Part shown: in pieces, positions 14,190-29,287 of the stretch
Numbering within the stretch: the first letter of the stretch is position 1
Layout: every line of letters begins with the position of its first letter
Assembly: GCA_030066655.1 (NCBI GenBank)
Contig: JASJBE010000068.1
Coordinates: 1-46,876 of the forward strand
Direction of reading: 5' to 3'
DNA length: 46,876 nucleotides
DNA from: Woeseiaceae bacterium
Lineage (GTDB): Bacteria > Pseudomonadota > Gammaproteobacteria > Steroidobacterales > Woeseiaceae
Translations under genes and position numbers: made by a program
Notes under the pieces: model-generated
Seen by the model: the letters and a program-made list of their open reading frames with translations, nothing else
The model's database searches: none
What the model was told of the DNA's origin: nothing

Positions 14190-14244
14190 CGTGTGCTGAA
14201 GACAGCGCATTATAGGAAAAAGTGAGCATTTTCCCCGTTTTTTC

Positions 14245-14273
14245 TTGACACTCGTGGTGCCCAAAAGGACAAT
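14245..14273 (+). promoter_or_regulatory. sigma70-type promoter of the tRNA-Met locus
   Basis: Perfect -35 TTGACA at 14245-14250, 17-bp spacer, -10 GACAAT at 14268-14273. It has the same form as the tRNA-Gln promoter. It lies upstream of the truncated tRNA copy, so a transcript would first pass through that remnant before reaching the intact tRNA. Confidence 0.65.
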
Positions 14274-14332
14274 CTGCGCCCCTCCACGCGTCGGTGGCAC
14301 AGGCCATTCTACGTGGACAAGACACAGATATC

Positions 14333-14384
14333 GGTGATGTAGCTCAGATGGTTAGAGCGGCGGACTCATAACCCGCAGGTCGGT
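14333..14384 (+). pseudogene. truncated tRNA-Met copy (5' 52 nt only)
   Basis: Bases 14333-14384 are identical to the first 52 nt of the intact tRNA-Met at 14475, including acceptor 5' strand, D arm, anticodon arm and variable loop. Identity stops exactly at the T arm, where the repeated 3'-end core starts in all other copies. A 9-bp remnant of the core (ATTCCACCC) lies at 14437-14445, inside a hairpin of GAATGGG with CCCATTC. This looks like the left junction of an insertion or of a 142-bp tandem duplication. Confidence 0.85.
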
Positions 14385-14474
14385 AAGTCATCCGAGCGGC
14401 GCGAAGCCCGCGACAGGCCGACCGAATGGGAGGCCCATTCCACCCTGACGGGTTGGGATTGAAAGACGAAATTT

Positions 14475-14551
14475 GGTGATGTAGCTCAGATGGTTAGAGC
14501 GGCGGACTCATAACCCGCAGGTCGGTGGTTCAATTCCACCCATCACCACCA
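14475..14551 (+). tRNA. tRNA-Met (anticodon CAT), integration target
   Basis: A 77-nt tRNA with encoded CCA. Acceptor GGTGATG (14475-14481) pairs with CATCACC (14541-14547); discriminator A, then CCA at 14549-14551. The anticodon loop is CTCATAA with CAT. The T stem GGTGG/CCACC encloses TTCAATT. The anticodon stem has an A-C opposition at its loop-closing pair (GCGGA against CCCGC). CAT could in principle also be tRNA-Ile2 (lysidine-modified); the overall sequence favours elongator Met. An intrinsic terminator follows 6 bp downstream. The 3' end is repeated five more times over the next 11 kb. Confidence 0.93.
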
Positions 14552-14557
14552 AACGCC

Positions 14558-14583
14558 AAGGGCGGCCCAAATGGGCCGCCCTT
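14558..14583 (+). terminator. intrinsic terminator after tRNA-Met
   Basis: An 11-bp perfect stem, AAGGGCGGCCC with GGGCCGCCCTT, around loop AAAT, followed by ATCGTTT. It ends the tRNA transcript. Confidence 0.85.
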
Positions 14584-14599
14584 ATCGTTTAGAGACGCT

Positions 14600-14610
14600 G
14601 GGTGGAATTG
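14600..14610 (-). repeat. inverted 11-bp copy of the tRNA 3'-end core
   Basis: GGGTGGAATTG is the exact reverse complement of CAATTCCACCC, the heart of the repeated core. It lies 17 bp after the tRNA terminator, in the gene-free first block. It could be chance (11 bp) or a recombinase-related inverted site. Confidence 0.4.
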
Positions 14611-14737
14611 TTACCGATGGTGCCTTCGATCAGCGTCAGTAGCAGCCCCGAAGCCAAGACTTGCTCTTTCGGTTATTGGGCTACCCTTCGGTCGATGTTC
14701 TTTTCACGGGCCGTTGCATCGTCTTGATCCCAAACTA

Positions 14738-14767
14738 GGTTCAATTCCACCCATCACCACCAAACGC
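14738..14767 (+). repeat. tRNA-Met 3'-end duplicate B (attachment-site copy)
   Basis: 30 bp identical to 14527-14556, covering the T loop, T stem 3' strand, acceptor 3' strand, CCA and six further bases (AAACGC). The identity extends past the tRNA itself, so the duplicated unit includes flanking sequence. A terminator follows. Confidence 0.9.
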
Positions 14768-14773
14768 TAGAAC

Positions 14774-14790
14774 GCGGCTCGCTGAGCCGC
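14774..14790 (+). terminator. hairpin after duplicate B
   Basis: GCGGCTC/GAGCCGC stem around loop GCT, followed by CTTCGTCGTTT. It is placed like the terminator after the intact tRNA but differs in sequence. Confidence 0.6.
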
Positions 14791-14838
14791 CTTCGTCGTT
14801 TGAAGGATGGTACGAACTCCCTTCCGTAGCATCCTCGT

Positions 14839-14869
14839 AGATTCTTGCTAGACTCATACTACGAATCTA
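14839..14869. promoter_or_regulatory. 7-bp inverted repeat upstream of the pilin gene
   Basis: TAGATTC (14839-14845) and GAATCTA (14863-14869) are perfect inverted repeats 17 bp apart, ending just before the G-rich ribosome site of the pilin gene. It may be an operator or a leader hairpin. Confidence 0.35.
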
Positions 14870-14889
14870 ACTCGAGGTGGGGGGGTACA

Positions 14890-15471
14890 GTGATCTTTAT
14901 TCCAAAATCTAAAAGCCAAAGCCGGCTCTCGAGATACAAGCGAAAGCAAAGTGGACTGACTCTTGTTGAGATAATTGTGATTCTGGTGCTCATCGCCATA
15001 ATGTTGGCGATTTCTGAGGGGTTGAAGTCTTGGTGGAACAAAAAACCACCTCCCTGGTACACGATAATTACACCTGTAAAGCAGGAGCCGACCTCAATCG
15101 TTATTACTAATGGCCCTCAGACCATAAATCCGGGCGTTGCTGCAACCTATACCGTTACAGTTACCTACCCGGCGCCAATTAACGCAACGAACGGCTTTGG
15201 CGTAATTGTGTCTATTTGGGAAGACGATCTTGGTGACGTGTTGCTGGATCGTCGTGTTCGAATTAGCGTTCCTGCAGGTGCGACATCCGGGTCTGCAACG
15301 TTTACGTTGACTTGTTTGGATCCGAATGGCGACGGAAGTTACACGATCAACGGTGACAACGGTTCCAATACCCTTGATGACACTTGGGAGATATTTGCGT
15401 ATGTGCCCGATCAGACAACGTCTGAAAGTAAAGAAGGACCAAACTACAACGTGTCTTGCGAGGAACCATGA
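14890..15471 (+). CDS. orphan type IV (pseudo)pilin-like protein with C-terminal beta domain
   Basis: Predicted 193-residue secreted protein. A basic 22-residue leader ends in SG, followed by LTLVEIIVILVLIAIMLAIS: this is the prepilin peptidase signature, cleavage after G22 with the conserved Glu at mature position 5. The hydrophobic helix gives way to a Ser/Thr-rich domain (residues about 55-190; VVITNGPQTINPGVAATYTVTVTYP-like strands) resembling a bacterial Ig-like or beta-sandwich fold with two late cysteines. The GTG at 14890 is chosen over the upstream ATG-like codons because a strong purine-rich site (GAGGTGGGGGGG, 14873-14884) precedes it. No other pilus gene is nearby, so it would rely on host machinery. 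It is AT-rich compared with the backbone, suggesting transfer. Confidence 0.8.
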   Translation: MIFIPKSKSQSRLSRYKRKQSGLTLVEIIVILVLIAIMLAISEGLKSWWNKKPPPWYTIITPVKQEPTSIVITNGPQTINPGVAATYTVTVTYPAPINATNGFGVIVSIWEDDLGDVLLDRRVRISVPAGATSGSATFTLTCLDPNGDGSYTINGDNGSNTLDDTWEIFAYVPDQTTSESKEGPNYNVSCEEP

Positions 15472-15615
15472 GTTAGCGGAACAAGACAGGTCTATGCCAC
15501 TGCAGCAAAACGGACCTGGACACCGGAAAAGGTTGGTATAGGTGGCTCAGTTAGTGCTCGTGATTCCAGGCGACCCGACGGGGTGAGATTCGACCTTGGG
15601 GAGAATCGAATCCAG

Positions 15616-15634
15616 TCCACCCATCACCCCCAAA
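15616..15634 (+). repeat. tRNA-Met 3'-end duplicate C (one mismatch)
   Basis: TCCACCCATCACCCCCAAA differs from the tRNA 3' end by a single A-to-C change. Sequence to its left (T-loop region) is diverged, so this is an older or different copy. A terminator follows at once. Confidence 0.75.
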
Positions 15635-15635
15635 A

Positions 15636-15660
15636 AAAGGGCGCCCTTGCGGCGCCCTTT
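15636..15660 (+). terminator. intrinsic terminator after duplicate C
   Basis: A 10-bp stem, AAAGGGCGCC with GGCGCCCTTT, around loop CTTGC, with T run on the plus strand and A run on the minus strand. It can end both the pilin transcript and the minus-strand ABM gene. Confidence 0.85.
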
Positions 15661-15687
15661 TGCGTTACTAATGTCGGTCCAAGGTCG

Positions 15688-16424
15688 TTACTTGATCGCA
15701 AGGATCGCGTAATTTCTGACATTGGCCACAACGCCGTCTTCCCAACCGCCGGCAACGAGCGTTGCCGATTGCTCTTTCAATAAACCAGCGACTTGCCCGG
15801 CGAAATGTGCCTCTCTGCCAGTCTCATCGGCGAAAATGTCGAAGATCGCAAAGTTGTCTTGGTCAAGCCGCAGTGCAACCCAGTAAAGCGTCTTTGGTTC
15901 GGTCTCCGCAACGACGGGACCCGCTGAAGTCAGAAGCTCTGCTAGAGCGTCCCCTTGGCCTTGCGCCGCCGTTATAGCGATGTACGTCGCTGTGGTTGCG
16001 TCGTATAAATCTACGGGCGCTTTTTCCGACAGCACCTCAGCATGGTTGACGTTTGCGACCACACCATCATCCCATCCGCCTTCGACCAGTTCCGGCGCAT
16101 TGGCCGCCAGGGCGCCGGCGACGGCGCCAGAGAAATGCGCGTCCCGTGCAGCCTCGTCCCGAAAGACATCAAAGATAGCGAGTTGTCTCTCTGAATCTCC
16201 CTGTAACGCGAACCACAGTTCGGTTCCGGTTCCGTTTCTTTAACGAGTGGAGCTGCGCCCGAAAGAAACTGCGCGAAATCTTCGGCCTTTTGAGATGCGG
16301 CGGTCATTGGAATGTAGCTAGCGAGTTTGTGTGTCATGGTTTCGTCCTGTGCTATCGCGGGTGTGGTTAGATTCAAGATGCTTAGTCCTACAAGCAGATG
16401 TGCGATGCTCTTTTCATAGTTCAC
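15688..16424 (-). pseudogene. exported protein with two antibiotic-biosynthesis-monooxygenase-like (ABM) domains, frameshifted
   Basis: Reads as two open frames (15688-16062 extended upstream, and 16011-16424) that together encode one protein. The N-terminal part has a signal peptide (LLVGLSILNLTTPAIAQ) and begins an ABM domain (KLASYIPMTAASQKAEDFAQFLSGAAPLVKETEP). At about 16219-16222 the frame must shift by one base; beyond it the other frame continues LWFALQGDSERQLAIFDVF and then EGGWDDGVVANVNHAEVLS. The second domain repeats the pattern (ETEPKTLYWVALRLD, FAIFDIFADETGREAHF). The two domains are clear duplicates, so the shift is a real mutation or a sequencing error. ABM domains are small ferredoxin-like folds of quinol monooxygenases and haem-degrading enzymes. 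It is divergent from a LysR gene. Confidence 0.8.
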
Positions 16425-16615
16425 CTCTATTGATATTTAGTGCGTGTTGGAATTACAAATCTGGCCTAAACCAGTACATGTCTACGTTGAGGCGACATTC
16501 TTCAGATTTCGCCTCAGATTCGCCAATACTATTTTTCTACCGTTCAATAGGTATAAACTATGAATAATCGAAGCCATAACACTTGGTCAAAAAGCAGCAA
16601 CGACGGAGACAACCG
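16425..16615. promoter_or_regulatory. divergent control region between ABM gene and LysR gene
   Basis: Contains an imperfect tandem repeat, CAGATTTCGCC (16503-16513) and CAGATTCGCC (16515-16524), and an AT-rich TATAAA at 16552-16557 suited to be a -10 for the LysR gene. Divergent LysR/target pairs usually share such an operator. Which repeat the regulator binds is inferred. Confidence 0.4.
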
Positions 16616-17482
16616 ATGGAAATGAATCAGGTGCGCTACTTCTTAGCGGTCTGTGAACATCGCAATTTCACGCACGCGGCTCGAGCCTCCTACGTCTCAC
16701 AGCCCTCGCTGACAGCCGCTATCAAGAAGTTAGAGGATGAATTCGGCGGGGCGCTGTTCCTGCGCGATAGGGCGGGGTGTCGGTTGACAGCATTGGGCGC
16801 ACTGGTGCGACCGCACATCGAAGCCGTGCAGCAACAGGCGCTTGAAGCAAAGGATGAAGCCGTACGCTATAACCGCCTCGAACGAGTTCCCTTATCCGTC
16901 GGGTTGGGCGAGACGATTGGCCAAAACCGGATAGCCAAGTCCGTCGAACGCTACCGCCGCAGGTATCCGGAGTCCGATATCGAGTTGATTGTCGACTCGC
17001 AGTCGTCGCTCCTTGAAGGCCTCCGTGAGGGCTCTTTGGATGTTGCCGTGACTTCGGCCGAAGTGAGTGACGAGCTTTATAGAGTCGACCCTATGTACAG
17101 CGAAGAGTACCGAGCGGTTGTGGCGGCCGACCACAAGCTTGGTAATCACTCTTCGGTTTCATTGGAAATGCTTGCCGATACGAGCATGCTGGATCGTCTG
17201 AACTGTGAAATGCGCGAATCGTTGTATCAGACGTGCGCTGAGAATGGACATAGCCTTTACGCGGCGTATCGGTCAAATCGCTTGGAGTGGTTGCTCGCGA
17301 TGGCGAGGCGAGGGTCGGGAGTCGTTGTCTTGCCGGATAGCTCGATTCCGGATGAGCCGAGCCTCGTTTCACTACCAATTGAGGGTCTCAAAATCAGCCG
17401 ACAGGTCGTCGCGGTTCGCTATAAACATCAGCCTTCGAGACCCGAAGTCGAGACTCTTGTAAGTGAAATGGCACGCCGCTAA
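16616..17482 (+). CDS. LysR-family transcriptional regulator
   Basis: A 288-residue LysR protein. The N-terminal winged helix is classic: MNQVRYFLAVCEHRNFTHAA, then SQPSLTAAIKKLEDEFGGALFLRD. The rest is the two-lobed effector domain (VPLSVGLGETIG to SLPIEGLKISRQVVAVRYK). The N-terminus resembles OxyR- or CatR-like members, but two redox cysteines in OxyR spacing are not evident (cysteines occur at LNCEMRESLYQTCAE). I chose the ATG at 16616, preceded by GGAG at 16604-16607; an in-frame ATG at 16622 is an alternative. The gene is divergent from the ABM gene, its most likely target. It lies in block C-D of the tRNA-anchored array. Confidence 0.92.
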   Translation: MEMNQVRYFLAVCEHRNFTHAARASYVSQPSLTAAIKKLEDEFGGALFLRDRAGCRLTALGALVRPHIEAVQQQALEAKDEAVRYNRLERVPLSVGLGETIGQNRIAKSVERYRRRYPESDIELIVDSQSSLLEGLREGSLDVAVTSAEVSDELYRVDPMYSEEYRAVVAADHKLGNHSSVSLEMLADTSMLDRLNCEMRESLYQTCAENGHSLYAAYRSNRLEWLLAMARRGSGVVVLPDSSIPDEPSLVSLPIEGLKISRQVVAVRYKHQPSRPEVETLVSEMARR

Positions 17483-17551
17483 AGCAAGTGGCCCTGTGAA
17501 GTTTGACCGAACTGGCGCTGTTTTGTTGAACATCCATCGAGTCGTAGACTA

Positions 17552-17721
17552 AGTCGCCCATAAGTCGGTCCCTTAGGGCGTATTTCCACTGGCATAAATG
17601 CCTCGACGAAACCCGAAGACAACTAGAAAATTGTTGAAAACAGGTATTTGGGTGAGACTTAGTTATTGGGAGGATATCCTGAGATGCTCCGAGAGCATTT
17701 CGATTCCACCCATCACCACCA
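17552..17721 (+). mobile_element. conserved non-coding element end D with tRNA 3'-end copy
   Basis: About 170 bp, from AGTCGCCCATAAGTCG to the tRNA-like core TTCGATTCCACCCATCACCA at 17699-17721, is homologous to 25146-25316, with conserved blocks throughout and almost equal length (170 against 171 bp). An AGGATATCCT palindrome lies about 50 bp before the core. The last 71 bases start GGTGA and end TCACC-ACCA, so both ends can pair like a tRNA acceptor stem. The open frame across it has mainly non-synonymous differences between the two copies, so I take it as non-coding. Confidence 0.7.
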
Positions 17722-17732
17722 CATTCAAATCC

Positions 17733-17754
17733 AGAGCCGTCCTAAGACGGCTCT
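17733..17754 (+). terminator. intrinsic terminator after duplicate D
   Basis: A 9-bp stem AGAGCCGTC/GACGGCTCT with loop CTAA, followed by TTTCTC. Confidence 0.8.
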
Positions 17755-18105
17755 TTTCTCTTCTGGAGACTGCTATACACACGTATTCGGGTGTCTAATG
17801 TCGTCTCCTGTCGTTCATTGACGTCCGCGGTCGGGCAGAGGCACCTATGGGGCAACTCGTGAGGTCCGAAGATAAGACAGGTCTGAGACAACGCGAGAAT
17901 GGTGTCATCTTCGTCTCTATGCTCTTTTGATCCCCAGGTAGTGAGCTATTTGGTTTGAAACACATGTTACAAAAACATCGCCAATAATGTGCTAATTGGG
18001 TGTTTTTTGTAGCCACTAAAAAGACATATAAAACATATACTTAAAGAAATGCGTGATATAAACAGCTGAATATCAATGTGATATCGTGTTAGCTTCCTGT
18101 GTCAT
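17755..18105. other. AT-rich intergenic region upstream of the Fic gene
   Basis: About 350 bp with no gene I recognise; small frames have no family features. The last 100 bp are strikingly AT-rich. GTGATAT occurs twice, near 18053 and 18077, within 60 bp of the Fic start, and may be an operator for autoregulation or a promoter component. This is inference. Confidence 0.4.
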
Positions 18106-19269
18106 ATGAAGTCTAATCACGATTTAAAGCTGGTTTCTCCCGCATTCGGTGACCCACTGACCGATACGATAATGCAGCTGCAACAGCTGTCTGGCCGTCG
18201 GCGTCTGCATGGAACGACAACTCCAGAGCTGTTCTTCGACCTGAAGTACATCTTTCAAATGATGGAGAGTCTGGGCTCATCTCGGATCGAGGGCAACCGC
18301 ACAACCATCGCGGACTTGGTGGACGCTCGAATAGAAAACCCCAGAACCAAAGACGAGAAGTTACACGAGATTAGCAATATTGATGCTGCTACTGAGTTTA
18401 TCGAGAGTGAGATTCGGCCTGGTGACGAGATAACTCATGCGCATGTCCGTGAGGCGCACAAGATCATCGTTGACGGACTGGCTTTGCCTCCCAAGGGCGA
18501 AGGAGATGCGACACCGGGCAGATATCGAGAGCAGGACGTTGCTATAGCCGGGGCGAAACACAGACCTCCTTCCTATCCGGATGTTCTTGGACTGATGGAC
18601 GAATTACTGAGCTTCCTCAACGACGGAGGAAATGACCAATTCGCCTTCATACGAGTAGCGCTGGTTCATCATCGATTTACCTGGATTCACCCATTTACCA
18701 ACGGAAACGGTCGAACGGTACGCCTGATTACCTACGCATCATTGATTCAGAAAGGATTCAATGTGGCCGATGGTCGGATAATTAATCCAGGTGCAGTATT
18801 TTTTTCGGACCGAGACACATACAACAATATGCTCGCAGCAGCTGACGCGGGAACAGAAGACGGGTTGCTCATGTGGTGCAGGTATGTGCTCGAAGGATTG
18901 TTACGTGAGTTTCAAAAGATTGACAGGCTTCTGGACATCGAAGATCTGAGAAAACAAGTACTGATTCCCGCCATTAAGCAATGCCGTAGACGCGGCGAAA
19001 TAGATGCGACAGATGAGCGCATCCTCTTGCTCGCAGCTGAAGAGCAAATAATCGCGGCCAGGGATGTCCACGCCCTGCTGAAAAAGACCTACCAGACGGC
19101 CCAGCGAAGAATGAGGAAGCTAAAGGACAGGAAGCTTCTCTGTAAGTCAGCGCATGAAAAACAGCATTACAGATTGGCGTTTGCGAATAACGCGTTGATG
19201 CGCTCCGTTGTTAGCGCACTTCAGTCTGAGGGGTTTTTCAAAGGATTAGATGAGTCCGATTTTCAGTAA
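18106..19269 (+). CDS. Fic-domain protein (class II, self-inhibited AMPylase type)
   Basis: A 387-residue protein. The catalytic Fic motif HPFTNGNGR is intact at residues 195-203, with the catalytic histidine at 195. The N-terminal inhibitory helix SSRIEGN (residues 58-64) matches the (S/T)xxxE(G/N) motif, whose glutamate blocks ATP in class II Fic enzymes; no separate antitoxin is needed. An LPPKGEGDATPGRYREQDV segment (flap region) precedes the core. The C-terminal 110 residues look like a winged helix (LLLAAEEQIIAARDVHALLKKTYQTAQRRMRKL), which suggests DNA binding. Fic enzymes transfer AMP or related groups to target proteins. It is AT-rich against the backbone and fills block D-E of the array alone. 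Confidence 0.93.
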   Translation: MKSNHDLKLVSPAFGDPLTDTIMQLQQLSGRRRLHGTTTPELFFDLKYIFQMMESLGSSRIEGNRTTIADLVDARIENPRTKDEKLHEISNIDAATEFIESEIRPGDEITHAHVREAHKIIVDGLALPPKGEGDATPGRYREQDVAIAGAKHRPPSYPDVLGLMDELLSFLNDGGNDQFAFIRVALVHHRFTWIHPFTNGNGRTVRLITYASLIQKGFNVADGRIINPGAVFFSDRDTYNNMLAAADAGTEDGLLMWCRYVLEGLLREFQKIDRLLDIEDLRKQVLIPAIKQCRRRGEIDATDERILLLAAEEQIIAARDVHALLKKTYQTAQRRMRKLKDRKLLCKSAHEKQHYRLAFANNALMRSVVSALQSEGFFKGLDESDFQ

Positions 19270-19361
19270 CTGTGACAATCCCCTAATGGGGGCAACTATC
19301 GGCAATTGTACAAATTGGATAATGGAGAATTATTCAATTTAATTAGTTGTCTATTAGTTGT

Positions 19362-19383
19362 ATTCCACCCATCGCCACCAAAC
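19362..19383 (+). repeat. tRNA-Met 3'-end duplicate E (CATCGCC allele)
   Basis: ATTCCACCCATCGCCACCAA has G instead of A in the acceptor strand (CATCGCC rather than CATCACC). The same allele is seen at 25293. The tRNA that gave rise to it would begin GGCGATG. Confidence 0.8.
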
Positions 19384-19389
19384 AAAACA

Positions 19390-19413
19390 AATAGGGCCCG
19401 TTGAGGCCCTATT
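19390..19413. terminator. bidirectional terminator after duplicate E
   Basis: A perfect 9-bp stem AATAGGGCC/GGCCCTATT with loop CGTTGA, flanked by A-rich sequence on the left and TCTCTT on the right. It lies 17 bp from the stop of the minus-strand ABC operon, so it can end transcripts from both sides. Confidence 0.75.
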
Positions 19414-19430
19414 CTCTTGACTGCTGTGAT

Positions 19431-20681
19431 TCAGGGTGAAAATTGCGGTAGATCTGCGAGCCGACCCGGGTCGAATGGGGCATCGCCAAAAAGCCCGGGG
19501 TAGTGGAAAGAACGAAGCTCGGCATGGAAGTCGCGCACCCTGCCTTCGTAGGCGAGCACAGACCCCATATCCGTTCCAGCCAGGTTCTGCAGCAGCCGCT
19601 CCAGCAGAGCCGGCGGCGCCGCTATCGCAAACAGCCCGGCCAGTCGATCGCGCTCAACTCGTCCCGCAGTGTAGGCTTGGGAGAGTTGTTCAGCTGTTTG
19701 ATCGCCCACTTGCTGGAAGGCGTAATACCATCCCCAATCGAATCCTTCACCGGTATGGGTATAACCCGTCCATTCAGGATGCCGCTCTGTAAAGGGCTCC
19801 ATCGTGTCCTCGACGGGCAAGTCCCAGGCATCGTTTACCGCCTCTCGCTGGGTCATGAGAATCTCTGCGCCAGTCGGAATCGGCACCATCACATCGATGA
19901 TGGCACGGCTACCGGCGGGCATTATCGTGCTTAGCAATACCCACACGCCAATGAGGCTGGCGAGAATCACCGGCGCGGAACGTTTCCAGCTTGCGAACCA
20001 CAGACATACCAGTGTCCAGAAGAGGATGTAGGCGACAACCAGAGCGACGGCGCCAATAAGCGTTGAGAAAGTGGTACCACTCAGGACGCCCGCAATAAGT
20101 AGCGGCGCGATGGAGGCAACCAGAATGCCGCCTGACCTGAGAAAAGCCCTTCGCCACCACAGTGATCCGCCACTAACGGCGGCTGCAACAAGCAAATTGA
20201 AGCGTCCTGCGCTGCGCTCACTGGCTTGCATATCATGCAAAAGGAAAATGAGAATCAGGGGCAGCACAAAGCCCGAAAGAAAGGCGAAATCGAAGCGGCC
20301 TATCAGTGCCAGTTCCGGATTGCCCGGGTCGTGCTCGTAAATCTGCCCCTCCAGCGCAAGCATACGCAGCCGGTGTTTCCACGAGGATGCGTCCCTCTGT
20401 CCCATCGCCGCGAAGGCGAAGTCCGATGGCGGGTCATAGGTTAGATGGAAGCTGTAGTAGGCTGCGCTGCCCCAATCACTTTGCTTAGTAAACTCGGCCA
20501 ACCGATCTTGCTGATCGGCGTTGACCAGAAACGCAATGCTCTCTCGTTGTTGCCGAACCTCGGCCATACCTGACCAGACTGCAAATGATGAGAAACCCAG
20601 AACGACCAGGGTCCAGACCACGAACGCGCGATCACGCAACATGAACCGGGTCTCGTGTTTGAGCGCATTGAAATTACTCAA
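19431..20681 (-). CDS. ABC-2 type exporter permease, DUF3526 type (second of pair)
   Basis: About 416 residues, six or seven transmembrane helices. A first helix near residue 25 (VVWTLVVLGFSSFAVW) is followed by a long periplasmic stretch of over 100 residues, then a cluster of five helices (LSGFVLPLILIFLLHD to SLIGVWVLLSTIMP) and a C-terminal soluble part. This layout, with a large external loop and the HDMQASERSAGRFNLL motif (coupling region), fits DUF3526 permeases. The start TTG at 20681 overlaps the upstream TGA by 4 bp (TTGA); the frame open further upstream has no start with family likeness. It is the last gene of the receptor-exporter operon. Confidence 0.82.
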   Translation of the reverse strand: MSNFNALKHETRFMLRDRAFVVWTLVVLGFSSFAVWSGMAEVRQQRESIAFLVNADQQDRLAEFTKQSDWGSAAYYSFHLTYDPPSDFAFAAMGQRDASSWKHRLRMLALEGQIYEHDPGNPELALIGRFDFAFLSGFVLPLILIFLLHDMQASERSAGRFNLLVAAAVSGGSLWWRRAFLRSGGILVASIAPLLIAGVLSGTTFSTLIGAVALVVAYILFWTLVCLWFASWKRSAPVILASLIGVWVLLSTIMPAGSRAIIDVMVPIPTGAEILMTQREAVNDAWDLPVEDTMEPFTERHPEWTGYTHTGEGFDWGWYYAFQQVGDQTAEQLSQAYTAGRVERDRLAGLFAIAAPPALLERLLQNLAGTDMGSVLAYEGRVRDFHAELRSFHYPGLFGDAPFDPGRLADLPQFSP

Positions 20682-22114
20682 AGCCTCAACCTCCCGCCGG
20701 TCCAGATCAGCATGCCGGATAGCACTGCCAGCCAGACCACAAGCATCCAAATAGACGAACCGGCACCTGCCAGGCGTACTGAAGCACTGGCGGGTTCGAG
20801 GTAGAACTCATCAAGGACCTGCCAGTTGGATGCATCGACACGCGCGCGCTCCCAGGATTCCTCGTCGCGATTGCGGTTGATGTCGTCAATATACGAAAGC
20901 TCTTCCGCATGCGTCCGGTTCAGTCCCTGCACGAATTCGAACCTCAATTCTTCAGCCTGCTGAAGGAAGCGGTGATAATGAACAAGGTCCGTGCCGGACA
21001 GTGAGCGAGACGCAAACGCAACGGCCAGCGCGGGCGTTAGCCACCCATGCTTGCCAAGCAGCTCGCCCTGGCGCATTTCTGCTTCCTGACGGCGTTCAGC
21101 ATAAACGTTCAGGGTCTTGGTCAGCTCCGCCTCAGCCATCTGCGCGAGGACGCCGCGTATGTTCACCTCCAGGTCTTCGACCCGATCCGCCCCATACTCT
21201 TCGAGCAGGCCCGCCTCCACGTTGTTATACACGGAGTCATCGACATCGTGCCCGTCACTCAGATCCCGAACCTCGGTCAGCATGGTGAGCTCCGTTTCAA
21301 TTTTTCCGGCAAGTGGCGTGGCATGGGACGAAACGTTGACAGCGACAGCTGGCAGCACAAGGGTCAATGCGAGCCAGATCGCTGCAAGCGTTGCAATAAC
21401 GGACGAGCGCTTTTCCAACACCGAGGAGATCAGTAGTGTCAGCGCGATCCAGATGGACAAATAGACAAGATAGACGCCGACAAGCGATATAGCGGCAAGC
21501 TGGCTTTCTCCGCTATTGAGCGAGACCAGGGCGCTGACGACGAGCGGCACTAGCAACAGCATAACGAACAAAAAGAGCGCCAGTTTCTTGCCTGCCAGGA
21601 GTATGCGACCGCTCAAGCCCTGCGCAAGCAAGGGCGCGAGTGCTCCCGCTTCCCGCTCTCGAGTCACTGCACCATGCCCGAGCACGATAATCAGCAGGGG
21701 TGCGAAGACCTGATAAATCAACGCCGGCGTCAACCAGGACAGGCCGCCGAGGTTGGCACTGCTCTCGGAAGCGGAAAACGTGGCTGAATTCTGGCGGTGG
21801 CCTTCTAGGAACATAGTTTGTCCCGTGACCGAATCCAGCCCCGGATCAAATATCGCCAGGGGCATGGGCGCCCGAAAGACATAGTGCCCATAGTGCACCA
21901 TACGGTGCGGGTGGCGATCAGGCTGAGATAGAAAGATCTGCTCTGAATCGGCCTGATAGTGCGCACGTTCGTGAGATTCTGCCTGCATACGCACGGCGGT
22001 CAGCAGACTTACGAAAATCAGGATGACGAGGAAGATCGCGACCACCGCAAGCGCCAGCTTCGAACGCAGCCAGTAGCGCCACTCGTCCGAGGCGATGATC
22101 AGTGTGGCCTTCAT
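20678..22114 (-). CDS. ABC-2 type exporter permease, DUF3526 type (first of pair)
   Basis: A 478-residue membrane protein paired with the next gene. N-terminal helix (LALAVVAIFLVILIFVSLL), long external loop rich in His and acidic residues, then five helices beginning with LTPALIYQVFAPLLIIVLG, the coupling motif HGAVTREREAGALAPLLAQGLSG, and a final helix (SIWMLVVWLAVLSGMLIWTG). The TREREAGTL-like motif contacts the ATPase in NosY/ABC-2 permeases. Translation starts at the ATG at 22114, overlapping the ATPase stop by 4 bp. With the other permease it should form a heterodimeric membrane channel. Substrate unknown; context points to an iron-chelator or small peptide. Confidence 0.85.
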   Translation of the reverse strand: MKATLIIASDEWRYWLRSKLALAVVAIFLVILIFVSLLTAVRMQAESHERAHYQADSEQIFLSQPDRHPHRMVHYGHYVFRAPMPLAIFDPGLDSVTGQTMFLEGHRQNSATFSASESSANLGGLSWLTPALIYQVFAPLLIIVLGHGAVTREREAGALAPLLAQGLSGRILLAGKKLALFLFVMLLLVPLVVSALVSLNSGESQLAAISLVGVYLVYLSIWIALTLLISSVLEKRSSVIATLAAIWLALTLVLPAVAVNVSSHATPLAGKIETELTMLTEVRDLSDGHDVDDSVYNNVEAGLLEEYGADRVEDLEVNIRGVLAQMAEAELTKTLNVYAERRQEAEMRQGELLGKHGWLTPALAVAFASRSLSGTDLVHYHRFLQQAEELRFEFVQGLNRTHAEELSYIDDINRNRDEESWERARVDASNWQVLDEFYLEPASASVRLAGAGSSIWMLVVWLAVLSGMLIWTGGRLRL

Positions 22115-22851
22115 GCGACTTGCTTATTCTTGCCTTCCCGATCCGAAAAAGCTCGGTGAACGGTTTCGGTCTTGATTCGGCCACCCTCGGGTGCAGAGAA
22201 CTCCCCGACGAGCTTGCCGTCGCGGAGCAAGCCAATCCGGTCAGCGACCTGGCACGCACCGTAGACATCATGCGTCACCATGAGGATAGTCTTGCCGAAA
22301 CCTGCAAGATCGCGAACGAGGTCATGAAACTCATCGATAGCACTGGGGTCGAGACCCGAGGTTGGCTCGTCAAGCAACAAGATGTCGGTATCCCTGAGAA
22401 TGGCCAGTGCGATTGCCACTTTCTGACGCATGCCTTTCGAATAGTCTCTGAGATTGCGCCCCCTCGATTCCGGGTTTAGAGAAACGCGATCAAGAGCAGA
22501 TTCGATGGCGGCTTCATCATCAGGCACCCCGGCGAGTTGCAGAAAATAGCGCAGATTCTCATAGGCATTCAGATGCTCATAAAGAGATGCCGATTCAGGG
22601 AGGTATGCGATTGCTTCGCGTGCCGCCTTGAGATGTTCGCCAACATCCAAACCGTTGACGGAAACACTGCCACCCGAAGGCGGCAGAAATCCGAGAAAAC
22701 TCAGCAATGTGGTCGACTTGCCCGCTCCGTTGCCGCCAAGAAGCGCGTAGACTTCGCTGCTGTGGACAATAAAGGAAACACTGCTCAGGACTTCCTTGCC
22801 CGAGCGGAATACTTGAAGCCGATCTGCTTGCAGTTGGGCAGAGCTATTCAC
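22111..22851 (-). CDS. ABC exporter ATP-binding protein
   Basis: A 246-residue ATPase of the ABC-2/NosF type. Walker A is GGNGAGKST, the Q-loop region follows FLGFLPPSGG, the signature is the YSKGM variant of LSGGQ usual in this subfamily, Walker B is ILLLDEPTSGLD, and the switch histidine lies in MVTHDV. The gene lies 20 bp (start 22851) downstream of the TonB receptor stop and overlaps the first permease by 4 bp, giving a tight receptor-ATPase-permease-permease operon. It would power export from the inner membrane. Confidence 0.95.
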   Translation of the reverse strand: MNSSAQLQADRLQVFRSGKEVLSSVSFIVHSSEVYALLGGNGAGKSTTLLSFLGFLPPSGGSVSVNGLDVGEHLKAAREAIAYLPESASLYEHLNAYENLRYFLQLAGVPDDEAAIESALDRVSLNPESRGRNLRDYSKGMRQKVAIALAILRDTDILLLDEPTSGLDPSAIDEFHDLVRDLAGFGKTILMVTHDVYGACQVADRIGLLRDGKLVGEFSAPEGGRIKTETVHRAFSDREGKNKQVA

Positions 22852-22870
22852 TTTTCTCTAAAAGCCTCGC

Positions 22871-24967
22871 TCAGAAGCGGATGTTGGCCGACACGCGGTA
22901 ACTGCGCGGTGTGCCCGGTTGTACCCAGACTTCAGCATACGAGTTGGTGTAATACTCTTCATCGAACAAGTTATGTACCTCAGCTGTTAGGCCTAGAGAC
23001 TCAGAGAAGTCATAGCTCGCAGCGACTCGCACCGTGGTGTAGCTCGGCAGCCTGAAGGTTGGATCGCCGAACTCGCCACTCCTGTCATCGACGTAAATCA
23101 GACCACCAATCAGCGTCAATTCTTTGCCAGCTAGTTGAGTCTGCTGGGCAAGTTGCAGGCTTAACTGGTTTTCAGGGACGTTCAGCAGATCTGATCCCGC
23201 AGGAATGAAGGCAAAAGAGATAAAGTCCGTGTAGTCGTTTTTGGTTTCAGCATCTACGTATGCATACGATAACCACATGCTAAGGGTGTCGGTGACGTTT
23301 CCTGTCAGATCAAACTCGAAACCCTGGCTTGCCGCTTTGCCTACCGCTGTGGGATTGAAATCCGCATCAAATGTCGCGATGTTGGAATGCTCAAGATCAA
23401 AGATCGGGAACGTACCCACCAGCGCACCGTCATTAAGCGCAAACTTTACTCCGATTTCCGTCGATTCTGCGATGTTGGGTTCCAAACCGTTCTCATCGGT
23501 GGCGCCTGAAAGCGGGCGGAAGTTTTCACCGTATGCCGCATAGATTGATAGTGTGTCTGTTGCCTTGTAAACGACACCAACCTGTGGGCTCACCTGGCTC
23601 TTAGAATAACGAGAGGTGCTGTCTGAAAGGCGATTATTGAGCCGTTGTTCATAATCATCAAAACGAGCGCCGAGCCGAATATCGAATTTCTCAGTCAGAC
23701 TAATCTGATCCTGAACGAAAAAACCGACGGACTCCTGCGTTTCCACTCGGTCGATTTGCGGTGCCAGTTCGAGGCCGGAAACCGGGGAGTTTCCATAGAC
23801 CGGGTTAAAAATATTTATGCTCTGATCGGTTGTTCTGTCTCGAAACGCGATCTGATCATTTTCAAATTCGTCAACATCGACACCTGCAATAATGCGATGC
23901 TCTATTCCGCCAACGTAGAAGCTTCCACTCAGCTCCGCCCGAAACACCTGGTAAGTCGCATCATAGTCTCGATCTCGGCTAAATCGACCGAAGTTTCCGT
24001 CGATATCCGGGGCGCCAAAACCATTCTCTGATGCCAGCCCATCGAGGGAGGTATCACGATAGTTGAAACCAACGAGGGCGCTCCAGTCGTCACTCAATTC
24101 ATGTTGGTACTCCAGCTGATGGCCGAGCACATCCGTGTCAATCGGACCATAACTGGGCTCGCCGAGGAAACGGCTCTCAGGGATCCGGCCTAGCTGGTCA
24201 TCGATGCCGATCACGCCGCGATCGAAAGGTGTTTCCTGAGCACTGTATTCCATTTCATAGATGAGTTGGCTTTCATTGCTGATTCGCCAGGCAAGCGATG
24301 GGCTGAACGCCAGCTTCTCGGTTTCTACAGTATCCCTAAAACTCTCAGCATCCTCATAAGCGCCAACAAGGCGAATTGCAACAGCATCGGACAAGGGGGC
24401 GGTGTAGTCAAAATCGGCACGGTAGGTACTAAAACTCCCTGCAGAGACCCTGAATTCTCCAGCCGTGTCAAAGGTGGGTCGCTTGGTTACCAGGTTCACG
24501 GTACCTCCAGGCTCACCGCGCCCAAACAAAGCGGCACGTGGGCCCTTTAGCACTTCAACGGATTCGATACCGGACAGGTCCCTGGAGCCGCCGAAACCGC
24601 GACCGGCGTTAAAGCCGTTCACGAGGTAATTACTCGGCAGGTTTTCATCGCCAACAAAACCACGAATCGCGAAGCTGTTCCAGAGACCACCGAAATTGTT
24701 CTGCCTGGCTACGGAAGCCGACAAATCCAGAGCCTGGACGAGGTCGATAGAACCCGCATTGCGTAAGGTTTCGGCATCGATCTTCAACTCGGCTTGCGGC
24801 GTTTCAAACAGATCGAATTCTCCCTGGTAGGCCTGCCGCGTGCCGACAACCGTAATGTTGTCAATGTCCGAGTTGTCTGCATCGGCAGATTGCGCTGAAA
24901 CGGGGTTAGCCCAAAGGACGATAGTCGAAGCGCCCACAATTAGCGGAACGCATAGTCTGTTGTTCAT
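22871..24967 (-). CDS. TonB-dependent siderophore-type outer membrane receptor
   Basis: About 698 residues. Sec signal peptide (LIVGASTIVLWANPVSAQ), then a TonB-box-like ITVVGTRQ, the plug domain (SIDLVQALDLSASVARQNN, IRGF, GIESVEVLKGPRAALFGRGEPGGTVNLVTKRP) and a 22-strand barrel ending in the C-terminal aromatic residue of RVSANIRF. GPRAALFGRGEPGGTVN is the signature of the ferrichrome/siderophore receptor class. The ATG at 24967 has AGGAG about 5 nt upstream; 12 further codons upstream are in frame but less likely. It leads an operon with an ABC-2 exporter, an unusual pairing of outer membrane import with inner membrane export genes. Confidence 0.93.
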   Translation of the reverse strand: MNNRLCVPLIVGASTIVLWANPVSAQSADADNSDIDNITVVGTRQAYQGEFDLFETPQAELKIDAETLRNAGSIDLVQALDLSASVARQNNFGGLWNSFAIRGFVGDENLPSNYLVNGFNAGRGFGGSRDLSGIESVEVLKGPRAALFGRGEPGGTVNLVTKRPTFDTAGEFRVSAGSFSTYRADFDYTAPLSDAVAIRLVGAYEDAESFRDTVETEKLAFSPSLAWRISNESQLIYEMEYSAQETPFDRGVIGIDDQLGRIPESRFLGEPSYGPIDTDVLGHQLEYQHELSDDWSALVGFNYRDTSLDGLASENGFGAPDIDGNFGRFSRDRDYDATYQVFRAELSGSFYVGGIEHRIIAGVDVDEFENDQIAFRDRTTDQSINIFNPVYGNSPVSGLELAPQIDRVETQESVGFFVQDQISLTEKFDIRLGARFDDYEQRLNNRLSDSTSRYSKSQVSPQVGVVYKATDTLSIYAAYGENFRPLSGATDENGLEPNIAESTEIGVKFALNDGALVGTFPIFDLEHSNIATFDADFNPTAVGKAASQGFEFDLTGNVTDTLSMWLSYAYVDAETKNDYTDFISFAFIPAGSDLLNVPENQLSLQLAQQTQLAGKELTLIGGLIYVDDRSGEFGDPTFRLPSYTTVRVAASYDFSESLGLTAEVHNLFDEEYYTNSYAEVWVQPGTPRSYRVSANIRF

Positions 24968-25084
24968 GAGAATCTCCTGACGGAATCGGCTTGGTAAAGA
25001 CAAGCGCCCAGACGGCTCTCTTCTGCCGCTACGGCTTGGCGAATCGACCTGCCGAATTGGCGGTCGCGAATGGAATAGAAGAAA

Positions 25085-25100
25085 CGATTAACGTTATAAC
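25085..25100 (-). promoter_or_regulatory. AT-rich palindrome upstream of the receptor operon
   Basis: GTTATAAC (25093-25100), inside a wider AT-rich stretch, about 125 bp before the receptor start. It could supply the -10 region of the minus-strand promoter. No classical Fur box is visible. Low certainty. Confidence 0.3.
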
Positions 25101-25145
25101 ATAACAGTGTAGTGCGGGAGAAGTTCCGAACTGCGGAATTGCCAC

Positions 25146-25316
25146 AGTCGCCCATAAGTCGTTCTCCTCGGGTGTTTTTCCACTGGCATTAACGCCTTGG
25201 TACGACGCGAAGATGAATAGAAAATCATTGAAAACAGATACTTGGGCGCGAGTTAGTCGATCGGAGGATTTCCTGAGTTATTGCTGGAGCGTTTCAATTC
25301 CACCCATCGCCACCAA
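25146..25316 (+). mobile_element. conserved non-coding element end F with tRNA 3'-end copy
   Basis: Homologous to the element end at 17552-17721 from AGTCGCCCATAAGTCG through CCACTGGCAT, TAGAAAAT, TTGAAAACAG and AGGATTTCCTGAG to the core TTCAATTCCACCCATCGCCA (25293-25316). The final 71 bases start GGCG and end CGCC-ACCA, so relative to copy D one acceptor-like pair has changed from T-A to C-G. This is the rightmost tRNA 3'-end copy, thus the outer boundary of the array. Only a weak hairpin follows it, unlike the other copies. Confidence 0.7.
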
Positions 25317-25419
25317 CCCAGGAAAAGGCTCCGGTCGTGCAGCCATTTCCATTCAAGCAAGAAAGATCAATCCGCGCTGCACGTACGCGCTATACATTGG
25401 TGCCAGGCCATCGCCAATT

Positions 25420-27483
25420 TCAGAATTGGCCAGACAAGGTTAGAACGACCTCCAGGCCGCTGCGCCGCGTACGATCTTCGACGAACCGAATCAGTTCCGT
25501 GGCACGGCTTCCCACATACACGGCCCTCGATCTCTGCCTCGGCTCATCCAGGACGTTGTTGGCATCCAGCCGCAATCGTGTTTTTTCGCTGAATGCCAGT
25601 GCTGCGAAGACCGATACTTCCACGTAGTCGAAGTCCTTCTCGAGCTCGTCGAAGCCAAAGAAGAACTCGCTTGTTCGATGGCGTAGCTTGACTCCATAGT
25701 CGATACCAATCGAGCTTATTGCCTGTCGGTATTCGAGGTCGACTCTGAAATCCCGCTCGTTCGACAATCGGCGTTCGCCAAGCGTGACGGGATCGGTGAC
25801 CTTCGATTTCTGTGCGCGCAAGTCGAAGTCCAGGTAGGCGTTCTGCCACGGCAGGAATGATAGTGGTGTCGTCCCATTCATCGTGAAGCCAAACACGCTC
25901 GCACTGCCAATATTACCCGGAACTTCGGAGTTGTCTGTCAGCGGGAGCAGATCCTGAACATCGGTTATGCGCTCGCCGAAAATACCCGTTCGAATAGATC
26001 TGTCGTTGCCGATTCGCCTCTCGTACTCGGCAGACAGTCGCCATCTCTGATCGGGCTCGAGATCTGGATTGCCGAACTCGAATTCATCGTCATCGAAATC
26101 GTTGGAACTTACGAAATCGGCGAAATTCAGCTGGCCAACAGTCTGCTCCAGTCGAACGCGCCATTGCGTATCGTTCGCCGTATCGATTGTCAGGGCCAGC
26201 CGAGGTTTTACGAATACAAACTGGCGCGTCTTCTCCACATCGCCATCCTGAGAGATCTCGGATGCCTCGATGGTCAAGCGAGAATCAAGCCGCACTCGAT
26301 CAGCGATGGGCATCGAAAAAGAGACGAACCCCTCGACACGCCGTTCGTCTACACGTGTATTGGCGCCAGGAGTGTCAATCGGTACCTCACCATTCCCATC
26401 GTCTTCAAATAACGACAACGTGTTGTCTACAAAGGTCTCACCGTACTCCAGGCCGTAGCGAGTCAAACTGTCGTTTTCTGCTCTGTGATCGATCGACACT
26501 GCCAGTATCGTCTCCCCGGTTGCTCGATCCGTTTCTGATCTGTCTGAAAGCCCCTCGGGCTCCAGCACACGGGTGGATGACTCACGAAACTCCTCCCGAT
26601 CAACCAGCAAGAGCGCGCGTACGCTTGATGACCTGGAGGCCGAGTATTCAAACTGGGTCGATACTTCGAAGCGGTCATAAGGAACCACGTCTGATCGAGT
26701 CTGCACAGTTCGTGAGTCCTGCGTTGATGTGCGTTCCGAGCGTTCCATCGAACGTTCGGTACCGGATCGCGACTCGCCGTTGATACCAAGGACGCCGCCA
26801 AACACGTCCGAGAACTTGGCCGATGCGAAAACTGTCGTATAGCGGTCACGTGAAGTCTGATTTTCCGTTCGCTGTTCGACAGTCTGCGCACCTGTGTTGA
26901 CGAGTTCGGGTCCTTCGGACCCAGCACGTAGGTTGCCAGCCTGTAATCCCAGGTTGAAGCTCGACGAATCGAAGACGCGCAGGGCGGACATTGATACTTC
27001 GCTGGAGGAATGTCCCAGTCTGTTGGAGGCGCCCAGCAACTCGTATGTAATCGTCCGTCGGTCCGGTGATTCAATCAGCACTACATCGAGAATCGACGTG
27101 TGAGTCGTGCTGCCGAGCAACTCTACCGAACCACTCGCGAGAGCGACGTGGCGGACTGCGGATGCCGGAATTTGAGACAGGATCTCCGTCAGGCTTCGGC
27201 TCTTCGCTACCGGTCTCTCGCCGTTGAGCAAGACGTTCCCCGCGGTTGCCTCGAAACCGCGGACCGAGCGTCCCTCATCCAGCACGAATCCGGGCACGTT
27301 GAGAACAATATCTAATGCCGAGACTACGTTGAACTTGTCAAAATACGGTCGGTTGAACTGCAGCGAGTCCTGCGAGTCTTCATGTTCCACGGGCGCTTGA
27401 TCAGCGAGACTGGCCTGGGCGCCCAGCAACAATAGGCAACCCAGTGCAATCCACTTCTTCCTGTCTGCTGTGGCTTTGTTCAT
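25420..27483 (-). CDS. TonB-dependent receptor-like outer membrane protein with plug domain
   Basis: About 687 residues. Signal peptide (WIALGCLLLLGAQASLAD), a compact plug domain (VVSALDIVLNVPGFVLDEGRS, VRGFEATAGNVLLNGERPV, ILSQIPASAVRHVALASG) and a long barrel with alternating amphipathic strands ending LTLSGQF, the terminal aromatic typical of BAM substrates. No clear TonB box is seen. The plug resembles the uncharacterised receptors common in Caulobacter and sphingomonads. The start at 27483 gives the best signal peptide; a GTG at 27513 is possible. It is divergent from the membrane-bound regulator at 27706. Its stop lies about 100 bp beyond the last tRNA 3'-end copy, so it is probably resident chromosome rather than cargo. 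Confidence 0.85.
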   Translation of the reverse strand: MNKATADRKKWIALGCLLLLGAQASLADQAPVEHEDSQDSLQFNRPYFDKFNVVSALDIVLNVPGFVLDEGRSVRGFEATAGNVLLNGERPVAKSRSLTEILSQIPASAVRHVALASGSVELLGSTTHTSILDVVLIESPDRRTITYELLGASNRLGHSSSEVSMSALRVFDSSSFNLGLQAGNLRAGSEGPELVNTGAQTVEQRTENQTSRDRYTTVFASAKFSDVFGGVLGINGESRSGTERSMERSERTSTQDSRTVQTRSDVVPYDRFEVSTQFEYSASRSSSVRALLLVDREEFRESSTRVLEPEGLSDRSETDRATGETILAVSIDHRAENDSLTRYGLEYGETFVDNTLSLFEDDGNGEVPIDTPGANTRVDERRVEGFVSFSMPIADRVRLDSRLTIEASEISQDGDVEKTRQFVFVKPRLALTIDTANDTQWRVRLEQTVGQLNFADFVSSNDFDDDEFEFGNPDLEPDQRWRLSAEYERRIGNDRSIRTGIFGERITDVQDLLPLTDNSEVPGNIGSASVFGFTMNGTTPLSFLPWQNAYLDFDLRAQKSKVTDPVTLGERRLSNERDFRVDLEYRQAISSIGIDYGVKLRHRTSEFFFGFDELEKDFDYVEVSVFAALAFSEKTRLRLDANNVLDEPRQRSRAVYVGSRATELIRFVEDRTRRSGLEVVLTLSGQF

Positions 27484-27705
27484 GGCAAGCCATTTTTTCG
27501 GCTGCACGGGCACCGCTCAACGAACTTTCGCTGAATTCTCCTGACATCTTTCTAACATCAACGGCTTACGCTCGATGTCGATTAGAATTCACTTGAAGGT
27601 GGTGTGAGGTTTCGGCTAGTTTGACTTCTGGTGGGTTGCCGGCAAGCAATACGGAGTCCGGGTTTTGTTCAAGAGTCTCGCCAGTCGTGAGCAGGAGCAT
27701 TGGAA

Positions 27706-28389
27706 ATGCCAGTGAAGCCTCGGTTTCTTCAGATCGGCGATATGCAATTCAACCCGGCGGACTGGACGTTAAGCCGGTCGGGTAAACGGCTCCCGCTGAC
27801 ACGACAGTCCGGCCAGTTGCTCGGTTATCTCATAGAGAACCGCGACAGAACCGTACCAAGAGACGAGCTGATAGAGCGGTTCTGGTCGCTCGATAGTATT
27901 GGTGCCGACGATCGTCTGAACACCTGCGTTCGCAGAATTCGGTCGGTTATCGATGCAAATGCCAGCACCGACTCATTGATCGAGACGAGGCCCCGAGTTG
28001 GGTACCAATTTGTTGGCGATGTCGTGGAACCCTTCAGCCGTTCTGAACGCACGCCGAAAGCAACGGGCAACCTTAAGTGGTGGATCGGTGGTGCACTCGG
28101 GTCGACGGCCGTCGTCGCCGTGGTCTCCGTGATCGTCAGCGGGTGGCCATCGCCTCCGGCGGCAACGAGCGGGTCGGTTTATCGCAATGACGGCTATCGA
28201 CTGGACAAATCGGGCACATTGAAATCAAGTTGCGATTTCGAGTTCGAAGGCGGCCCGGGTTGGTGTGACATCAAGGGTGAAGGCATTGTGACGTTCTCGT
28301 ATCGGGACCGGTTCCTGCTTCGAGTGGAAGTCACGCCCACGAGGGACGTACGCTGCGAGCTTGGCGATGGCGAGGTCTCCTGCAGCTAA
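27706..28389 (+). CDS. CadC/ToxR-type membrane-anchored transcriptional regulator with small periplasmic domain
   Basis: About 227 residues. An OmpR/PhoB-type winged helix occupies residues 1-105 (FNPADWTLSRSGKRLPLTRQ, then LLGYLIENRDRTVPRDELIE and ETRPRVGYQFVG). A single transmembrane helix follows (WWIGGALGSTAVVAVVSVIVS, about residues 125-145), then a periplasmic domain of only about 75 residues containing four cysteines (SSCDFEF, GWCDI, VRCEL, VSCS). This is the ToxR/CadC layout with an unusually short sensor. The ATG at 27706 lies 8 nt after AGGAG; a TTG two codons earlier is less well placed. It is divergent from the receptor-like gene, its probable target. The four-cysteine domain suggests two disulfides and perhaps redox sensing (inference). 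Confidence 0.88.
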   Translation: MPVKPRFLQIGDMQFNPADWTLSRSGKRLPLTRQSGQLLGYLIENRDRTVPRDELIERFWSLDSIGADDRLNTCVRRIRSVIDANASTDSLIETRPRVGYQFVGDVVEPFSRSERTPKATGNLKWWIGGALGSTAVVAVVSVIVSGWPSPPAATSGSVYRNDGYRLDKSGTLKSSCDFEFEGGPGWCDIKGEGIVTFSYRDRFLLRVEVTPTRDVRCELGDGEVSCS

Positions 28390-28411
28390 GAAACGGGTTT
28401 TCAGCCGGCGG

Positions 28412-29233: not shown

Positions 29234-29287
29234 AAGCCAAACCTCAGGTCATTCGGCGTGAGCATACCCGACTCCGCTTCGAGGAAG

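Follow-up and report, generated by a model that had tools for sequence, protein, structure and literature searches.

Two blocks of DNA in the window, the whole stretch of 46,876 nucleotides analysed here, close with a related sequence of 170 bp that ends like a tRNA, and the question raised is whether this sequence works as a structured RNA derived from a tRNA or as the end of a mobile element. The initial annotation had described the sequence at two block ends, each finishing in a tRNA core, and this was confirmed: positions 17552-17721 form a gap-free alignment of 170 bp with positions 25146-25315, at 77–78% identity, and in a search of the 3.61-Mb host genome the copies match each other with an E-value of 2.8e-32. 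Both close with the 23-base 3' core of tRNA-Met, with one mismatch each, and the repeat is composed of a 147-bp arm followed by this core. The limits given for copy 1 were right and those for copy 2 needed one change, from an end at 25316 to 25315. The letters GGTGA...TCACC and GGCG...CGCC, 71 bases apart from start to end, were also found as described. The 170 bp are very probably an attachment end, on the integrase side, of elements that target the 3' end of tRNA-Met(CAT), kept on cassettes that lack an integrase. This reading, drawn from sequence comparison, follows from the relatedness of the repeat to integrase leaders in other genomes, from its sharp limits and from the row of tRNA 3' ends in which it stands, as well as from the scan of the window proteins, which gave no integrase. 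On this reading the feature belongs to the common equipment of mobile DNA, with no tRNA-like RNA hidden in it.

The cassette array behind tRNA-Met

The features of the locus, in positions of the window, are listed below.

14333..14384, plus strand: 52 bases identical to the 5' part of tRNA-Met, upstream of the intact tRNA gene
14475..14551, plus strand: intact tRNA-Met(CAT), probable integration target (ARAGORN; Rfam tRNA, 71.2 bits)
14552..14762, plus strand: cassette C1, 211 bp, with an exact copy of the 23-base tRNA 3' end at its end and no ORF of at least 80 aa wholly inside
14763..15632, plus strand: cassette C2, 870 bp, with a 208-aa ORF carrying an N_methyl (pilin) motif, ending in a degenerate tRNA 3' end
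15532-15632: relative of the hairpin modules at the end of cassette C2 (37.5 bits)
15633..17721, plus strand: cassette C3, 2089 bp, with a LysR regulator and two short ORFs, then the 170-bp end
15688-16424, minus strand: the two short ORFs of cassette C3
16583-17482, plus strand: the LysR regulator of cassette C3
17552..17721, plus strand: copy 1 of the 170-bp repeat, putative attachment end of integrase type, ending cassette C3
17559-17561, minus strand: probable former integrase start codon of copy 1 (CAT), counted from the sequence
17699-17721, plus strand: tRNA core of copy 1
17722..19380, plus strand: cassette C4, 1659 bp, with a terminator-like hairpin at its start and a Fic protein, closed by a copy of the tRNA 3' end that lacks the 170-bp arm
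18106-19269, plus strand: the Fic protein of cassette C4
19381..25315, plus strand: cassette C5, 5935 bp, ending in the 170-bp repeat; its cargo (two DUF3526 membrane proteins, an ABC ATPase and a TonB-dependent receptor) lies entirely on the minus strand
25146..25315, plus strand: copy 2 of the 170-bp repeat, putative attachment end of integrase type, ending cassette C5
25153-25155, minus strand: probable former integrase start codon of copy 2 (CAT), counted from the sequence
25293-25315, plus strand: tRNA core of copy 2

Five extra tRNA-Met 3' ends follow the intact gene in the same orientation, ending at 14762, 15632, 17721, 19380 and 25315, with 0, 4, 1, 3 and 1 mismatches in 23 bases, respectively, which gives six tRNA 3' ends in line when that of the gene itself is counted. 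The copies split the array (14552-25315) into five cassettes of low G+C content (0.545, 0.499, 0.532, 0.477 and 0.549 for C1–C5, respectively); the flanks have values of 0.603 (8000-14332) and 0.608 (31938-46876). The row of tRNA 3' ends and the low G+C content of the cassettes fit stepwise integration. As expected for an attachment end, the 170-bp repeat finishes in the 3' part of the target tRNA, and an intact tRNA stands at the other end of the insertion. The arm is missing from cassettes C1, C2 and C4, which have only the tRNA core at their ends. The last 19 bases of copy 1 are shared with the tRNA, and copy 2 has one mismatch over those bases. In both copies the distance between the presumed former start codon (CAT on the plus strand) and the core is 137 bp. 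The 170-bp block is sharply bounded, with similarity between the two copies dropping to 15–30% just past the outer end and to 23% right after the CCA. The host genome contains the repeat twice, among seven matches in total. Of the other five, all short, four cover tRNA 3' ends within the window, that of the intact gene among them, and one lies elsewhere.

A Pfam scan of the 20 window proteins, eight of which lie in the array, found no recombinase or integrase, and no conjugation or mobilization genes were found among the same 20 proteins. Similarly, no relatives of the leader-linked integrase described below were found in the host genome (91% complete, 167 contigs), where the only Phage_integrase matches were XerD and XerC. 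By eye, a G+C-rich inverted repeat lies within about 50 bp after the CCA at the start of each cassette. A pattern scan marked two of these five as terminator-like (17733-17754 and 19389-19414, the other strand), and the terminator-like sites recognised by the scan showed no excess over shuffled sequences (12 versus a mean of 11.1).

No clean empty site was found for the whole array; in the near relative G044, the tRNA-Met locus regains homology only at window position 31938. The 6.6 kb past the last tRNA 3' end (25316-31937) have no match at that locus, and the first 2.3 kb past the array (25316-27600) had no matches in the other 106 family genomes (1 of 107, the window's own). This stretch is possibly a sixth insertion with its end lost. 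Upstream of the intact gene, the 5' tRNA-Met copy is followed, by eye, by what look like remains of hairpins and part of the tRNA 3' end (14333-14450), and this feature has a diverged counterpart in G044. The Fic protein of cassette C4 matches SoFic of PADLOC (E-value of 4e-49), with a score far below the NCBIfam cut-off for SoFic. A non-coding module of 208–211 bp between two tRNA 3' ends was observed in four genomes (window 14552-14762, L032 4835-5043, L084 1289-1498 and L086 1160-1367), of which the window and G044 are clearly alike, G102 and G028 being judged by eye. It is perhaps a bare attachment site without cargo.

Integrase leaders in related genomes

When 99 related genomes were searched with the 170-bp repeat, G055 was the only one with long matches outside the window, the remaining matches being short and mostly confined to the tRNA 3' end. 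Genome G055 carries one copy at a cassette end (83% identity) and another, which is partial (76%) and lies directly 5' of a gene for a 376-aa tyrosine integrase. The core of the cassette-end copy is identical to G055's own tRNA, and the integrase-side arm has no recognisable core after it, an intact core being found 2.1 kb further on, at the end of the next stretch. Relatives of this integrase were found in three of 149 genomes, G055 included. The other two are G068, which belongs to a different family of the order (64% identity), and G033, from the same genus (46%). In both, the gene reads away from an exact tRNA-Met core, with 137 and 139 bp, respectively, between start codon and core. The leader and core of G068 align without gaps to the repeat, with identities of 70.7% to the G055 end and 66.9% to window copy 2 (BLAST) and of 63% to window copy 1 (multiple alignment). 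The leader of G033 is poorly alignable (49–56%) and scores weakly against the sequence model (23.5 bits). Thus, sequence homologous to the repeat adjoins an integrase gene in G055, a genome of the same genus, and in G068, and the same layout with weak similarity is seen in G033.

The outer limit of the repeat was compared in the three integrase-less copies, the two of the window and that of G055. The position of the start codon reads ATG, ATG and TTG, respectively, and similarity ends about 7–10 bases beyond it, with 85–90% identity in the first 20 bases inside the edge versus 13–30% outside; past the CCA the identity is 23–40%. A purine-rich, ribosome-binding-like stretch is kept in two of the three copies and is poor in window copy 1 (by eye). 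The initial annotation had suggested a conserved element end bound by a recombinase, of which the element end is upheld, being homologous to integrase-adjacent sequence in relatives, and the role of a recombinase remains putative. It had also named an intact integrase matching the sequence at its 3' coding end as evidence against its proposal; an intact integrase does come close to this, with the match at the 5' end of the gene and the region upstream.

The 170-bp end is uncommon: the sequence model of the arm matched four of 107 family genomes, with the copy in G022 decayed and that in G033 weak; in this and other searches over more than 40 genomes the filters were stricter and weak copies can be missed. 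The G022 match was considered as a chance similarity, and since its reverse strand lines up with both arm and core (seven mismatches in 23) it was treated, with some uncertainty, as a decayed copy. The same genome bears on the history of the cargo. The C5 cargo adjoins the decayed arm there, 33 kb behind the tRNA-Met of G022 (82% DNA identity over 5.6 kb), so that shared descent instead of movement is possible for C5. The C3 cargo lies on another contig than the tRNA-Met of G022 (78%), its homology stops at the gene ends before the arm, and no arm was detected beside it by BLAST, which indicates that cargo and end can occur separately. Genes found elsewhere in the genome of a relative, here the LysR regulator and its adjoining gene, can therefore sit between such ends.

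All three proteins were assigned to integrases by PHROGs (G055, G068 and G033, E-values of 9e-27 to 5e-30), and that of G055, the one of the three run through Pfam, was assigned likewise. A GKFR box was observed in all three (L029 13649-14779, L045 8895-10028 and L047 1552-2709), in which G replaces the first H of the HxxR box usual in tyrosine recombinases. A four-row integrase model matched four of 396 genomes of the order (three being G055, G068 and G033) and one of 369 genomes of the class, in overlapping draws. The two new integrases found in this way also lie near sequence resembling the 3' ends of other tRNAs, as judged by pattern match in short loci without a full predicted tRNA. For two of the integrases a GTDB contig bears a name, in one case that of Proteobacteria bacterium UBA1844 (contig DDIS01000040.1) and in the other that of Gammaproteobacteria isolate 7_bin.79. 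A search of viral contigs with the integrase gave only two short matches of 38%, and a sequence search for relatives of solved structure gave nine matches at E-values up to 1, the sole recombinase being XerA (E-value of 0.3). The island of G055 also contains a primase-helicase gene and a weak HTH_17 match, like elements of the phage-satellite type. At the same tRNA-Met, G046 (L033 4705 to L034 2601) has a 17.9-kb element with a different integrase beside the tRNA; its domains are PF13356 and PF00589, the P4-type combination.

Present function of the ends and likeness to known systems

If the 170 bp are an attachment end, the outer edge would hold the first few bases and the start codon of a former integrase gene, on the minus strand and reading away from the core, the middle would be the integrase leader, probably with the promoter and with binding sites of the arm type, and strand exchange would take place in the 23-base tRNA core at the inner edge. 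An autonomous relative, such as the element of G055 or of G068, could supply the integrase in trans; this enzyme would bind the leader as an arm and exchange strands in the core, and new cassettes would enter next to the tRNA, with older ones pushed away. Cassettes C3 and C5 would then be integrase-less relatives, cis-mobilizable or satellite-like, inserted successively, and would have kept the 170-bp end because a supplied integrase must bind it. With no relative of the integrase found in the host genome, the chances that the window cassettes were moved in trans appear about even. Counting against the attachment-end reading as a whole are this missing relative, the rarity of the end among family genomes, the armless cassettes C1, C2 and C4, the poorly kept ribosome-binding-like stretch of copy 1 and, for C5, its cargo beside the decayed arm of G022. 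For an integrase-less cassette, the arm indicates which integrase family may move it, and cargo without a recombinase of its own can be given a candidate mover in this way.

The main alternative agrees on the identity of the sequence and differs on its present function: the integrase-less cassettes could be dead remnants, with the integrase deleted after integration and the 170 bp alike by descent and no longer used. This is a real though lesser possibility. The missing helper in the host genome is in its favour, decay does occur, as in the integrase-side arm of G055 without a recognisable core and in the decayed arm and core of G022, and most of the ribosome-binding-like stretch is gone from window copy 1 (by eye). 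However, the three integrase-less copies have unrelated neighbours and share the same outer limit, about 7–10 bases past the old start codon, and their cores are close to exact (one mismatch per window copy, and that of G055 equal to its own tRNA), neither of which would be expected from random deletion and decay. A stronger proposal, that arm and core form a standard portable cassette end to which unrelated cargo was joined at the old integrase start codon, and that an integrase absent from the host stacks such cassettes behind tRNA-Met in trans, in the manner of an integron with tRNA ends replacing attC, is considered unlikely. A duplication or gene conversion inside the array, which would make copy 2 a derivative and the two ends uninformative on two elements, is very improbable; the copies do lie in one array in the same orientation, but they are 77% alike, less than each is to the G055 end (83% and 86%), which a duplication within the array would not lead one to expect.

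Tandem islands behind RNA genes, some without an integration module, are already in print (PMC3146451, PMC5704250), as the accessible parts of these sources describe. The CIMEs of a review are elements that have lost their integration genes, kept their attachment ends and become stacked in tandem behind one target gene (PMC5704250, in the part available). The window cassettes resemble them in being flanked by attachment sites without integration genes, as found for the 20 window proteins and in the genome search. The CIMEs in the available part of that review derive from conjugative or mobilizable elements, whereas the array has no such genes among the 20 proteins scanned (PMC5704250). Also unlike them, as far as that text extends, the kept end in the window still includes what appears to be an integrase leader and start codon; accretion in the window is putative (PMC5704250). 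In Dehalococcoides, several islands at ssrA stand in tandem, and the 3' end of the RNA gene recurs between them as short direct repeats; 15 islands have no integration module, which the authors suggest might be cis-mobilizable (PMC3146451, from the portion at hand). The recombinase there is a serine recombinase and the target the tmRNA gene, whereas the window involves a tyrosine recombinase family and tRNA-Met (same source).

Tycheposons, according to the accessible text on them, carry cargo behind tRNA-Met together with a tyrosine recombinase, and additive flexible islands carry cargo behind repeats of the tRNA 3' end (PMC10872708). The window is like both in layout, but the tyrosine recombinase gene of its own that marks a tycheposon was found neither among the scanned window proteins nor in the genome, which gave only XerD and XerC (PMC10872708, same portion). 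CALINs are comparable as cargo arrays split by recombination sites with a recombinase supplied elsewhere (PMC11389934, in the part available). They and integrons differ from the window in that its sites are tRNA 3' ends with an integrase-leader arm, and no conserved fold such as that of attC was recognised by shuffle z-scores and the alignment fold (PMC11389934). Among the publications listed on integrase-less tandem cassettes at RNA genes, judged by title and start of abstract with few subscription papers covered, none describes the arm.

Folding of the repeat and of neighbouring hairpin modules

The proposal that the 170 bp are a tRNA-derived structured RNA, or a recombination site folded as a single strand and selected for pairing, started from a compensatory change in the end pairs of the two window copies, and the initial annotation had named further copies with paired changes in the acceptor-like stem as what would support it. 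One both-sided change does exist between the window copies, and it does not extend to a pattern. Over six copies (G033 and the integrase-side copy of G055 having gaps at the first two pairs), 61.5% of the cells of the five proposed end pairs are paired versus 59.0% after shuffling, and there is one both-sided change in total, in window copy 2, a number that 164 of 500 shuffles also attained. In the third complete integrase-less copy (L029:16916-17084), GGCGC stands opposite TCACC, with pairs 3 and 5 broken. The palindrome AGGATATCCT is kept in two of five aligned copies.

Folding gave a similar result. For window copy 1, none of 200 shuffles folds as well as the last 71 nt (z of -4.0), and the 170 nt have a z of -2.1, which would favour a structure, but the last 71 nt of window copy 2, G055 and G068 fold hardly or no better than shuffled sequence (z of +0.7, +0.3 and -0.9, respectively), and the 170 nt of window copy 2 have a z of +1.3. 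We ascribe the good fold of window copy 1 alone to chance or to a hairpin private to that copy. In the fold common to five copies the covariation term is positive (+2.24), which speaks against a shared structure, and both-sided changes occur in four of 31 pairs. No conserved fold was thus found in the repeat by shuffle z-scores and the five-copy alignment fold, and neither pairing acceptor and T stems nor covarying stems, the marks of a tRNA or tRNA-like RNA, were found by ARAGORN, Rfam, covariation and folding. The structured-RNA reading, largely refuted by covariation equal to shuffling, has a negligible probability.

Hairpin-rich modules between tRNA genes and copies of their 3' ends occur in many family genomes and are distinct from the 170-bp repeat, though nearby. 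A covariance model built from eight modules matched 87 of 107 family genomes at E-values up to 0.001, with up to 17 matches per genome; these E-values are rough, and chance or plain tRNA ends may account for the weakest matches, several tRNAs scoring near 18 bits. From the 30 loci returned, 22 were examined: in six, a tRNA (Met, Val or Ser) precedes a module whose end repeats the 3' end of that same tRNA (exact over 18 bases in five), 10 have no tRNA in the fetched stretch, some being cut by contig ends, and six have a tRNA and no downstream copy. Nine loci with such or other short modules contain no Rfam family above threshold other than tRNA. The modules and the related tRNA-Met copies are located as follows.

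Window 15532-15632; L083, L084, L085, L087, L035, L038, L060, L105, L108, L109, L115 and L118: hairpin modules, mostly of about 145–180 bp
L039 7090-7215, L053 7371-7500, L052 3755-3880, L106 19-148 and L113 60-190: tRNA-Met copies with a hairpin array of about 70 bases in the T loop

At least five of 38 model matches start as tRNA-Met and pass into hairpins inside the T loop (by eye), and an intact tRNA-Met comes next in L039, L053, L052 and L106, with L053 and L052 judged from the same places seen as L100 and L107. In 25 of 36 modules all 7 bp of one stem are paired, and 10 different 5' arms occur among them; pairing was 15% with the arm of another module and 8% with shuffled arms. The RNAalifold structure of the model, made from a poor alignment, has a both-sided change in one of 19 pairs and a covariation term of +0.3, so that the case for a module fold rests on the stem count. 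The window member (15532-15632) is divergent and folds no better than shuffles (z of +0.8).

A tRNA-linked repeat (TLR) directly follows an RNA gene, and 18–19 bp of its 3' end match the 3' end of that gene without a mismatch (PMC8144298, in the part available). The hairpin modules are like the TLRs of E. coli, as presented in that part, in having this defining copy (PMC8144298). In the 170-bp repeat, the part outside the tRNA end is accounted for by the probable integrase leader. A near-identical hairpin module of 239 bp was observed twice in one array (L031 5971-6209 and 6878-7116), with a 668-bp cassette between the two.
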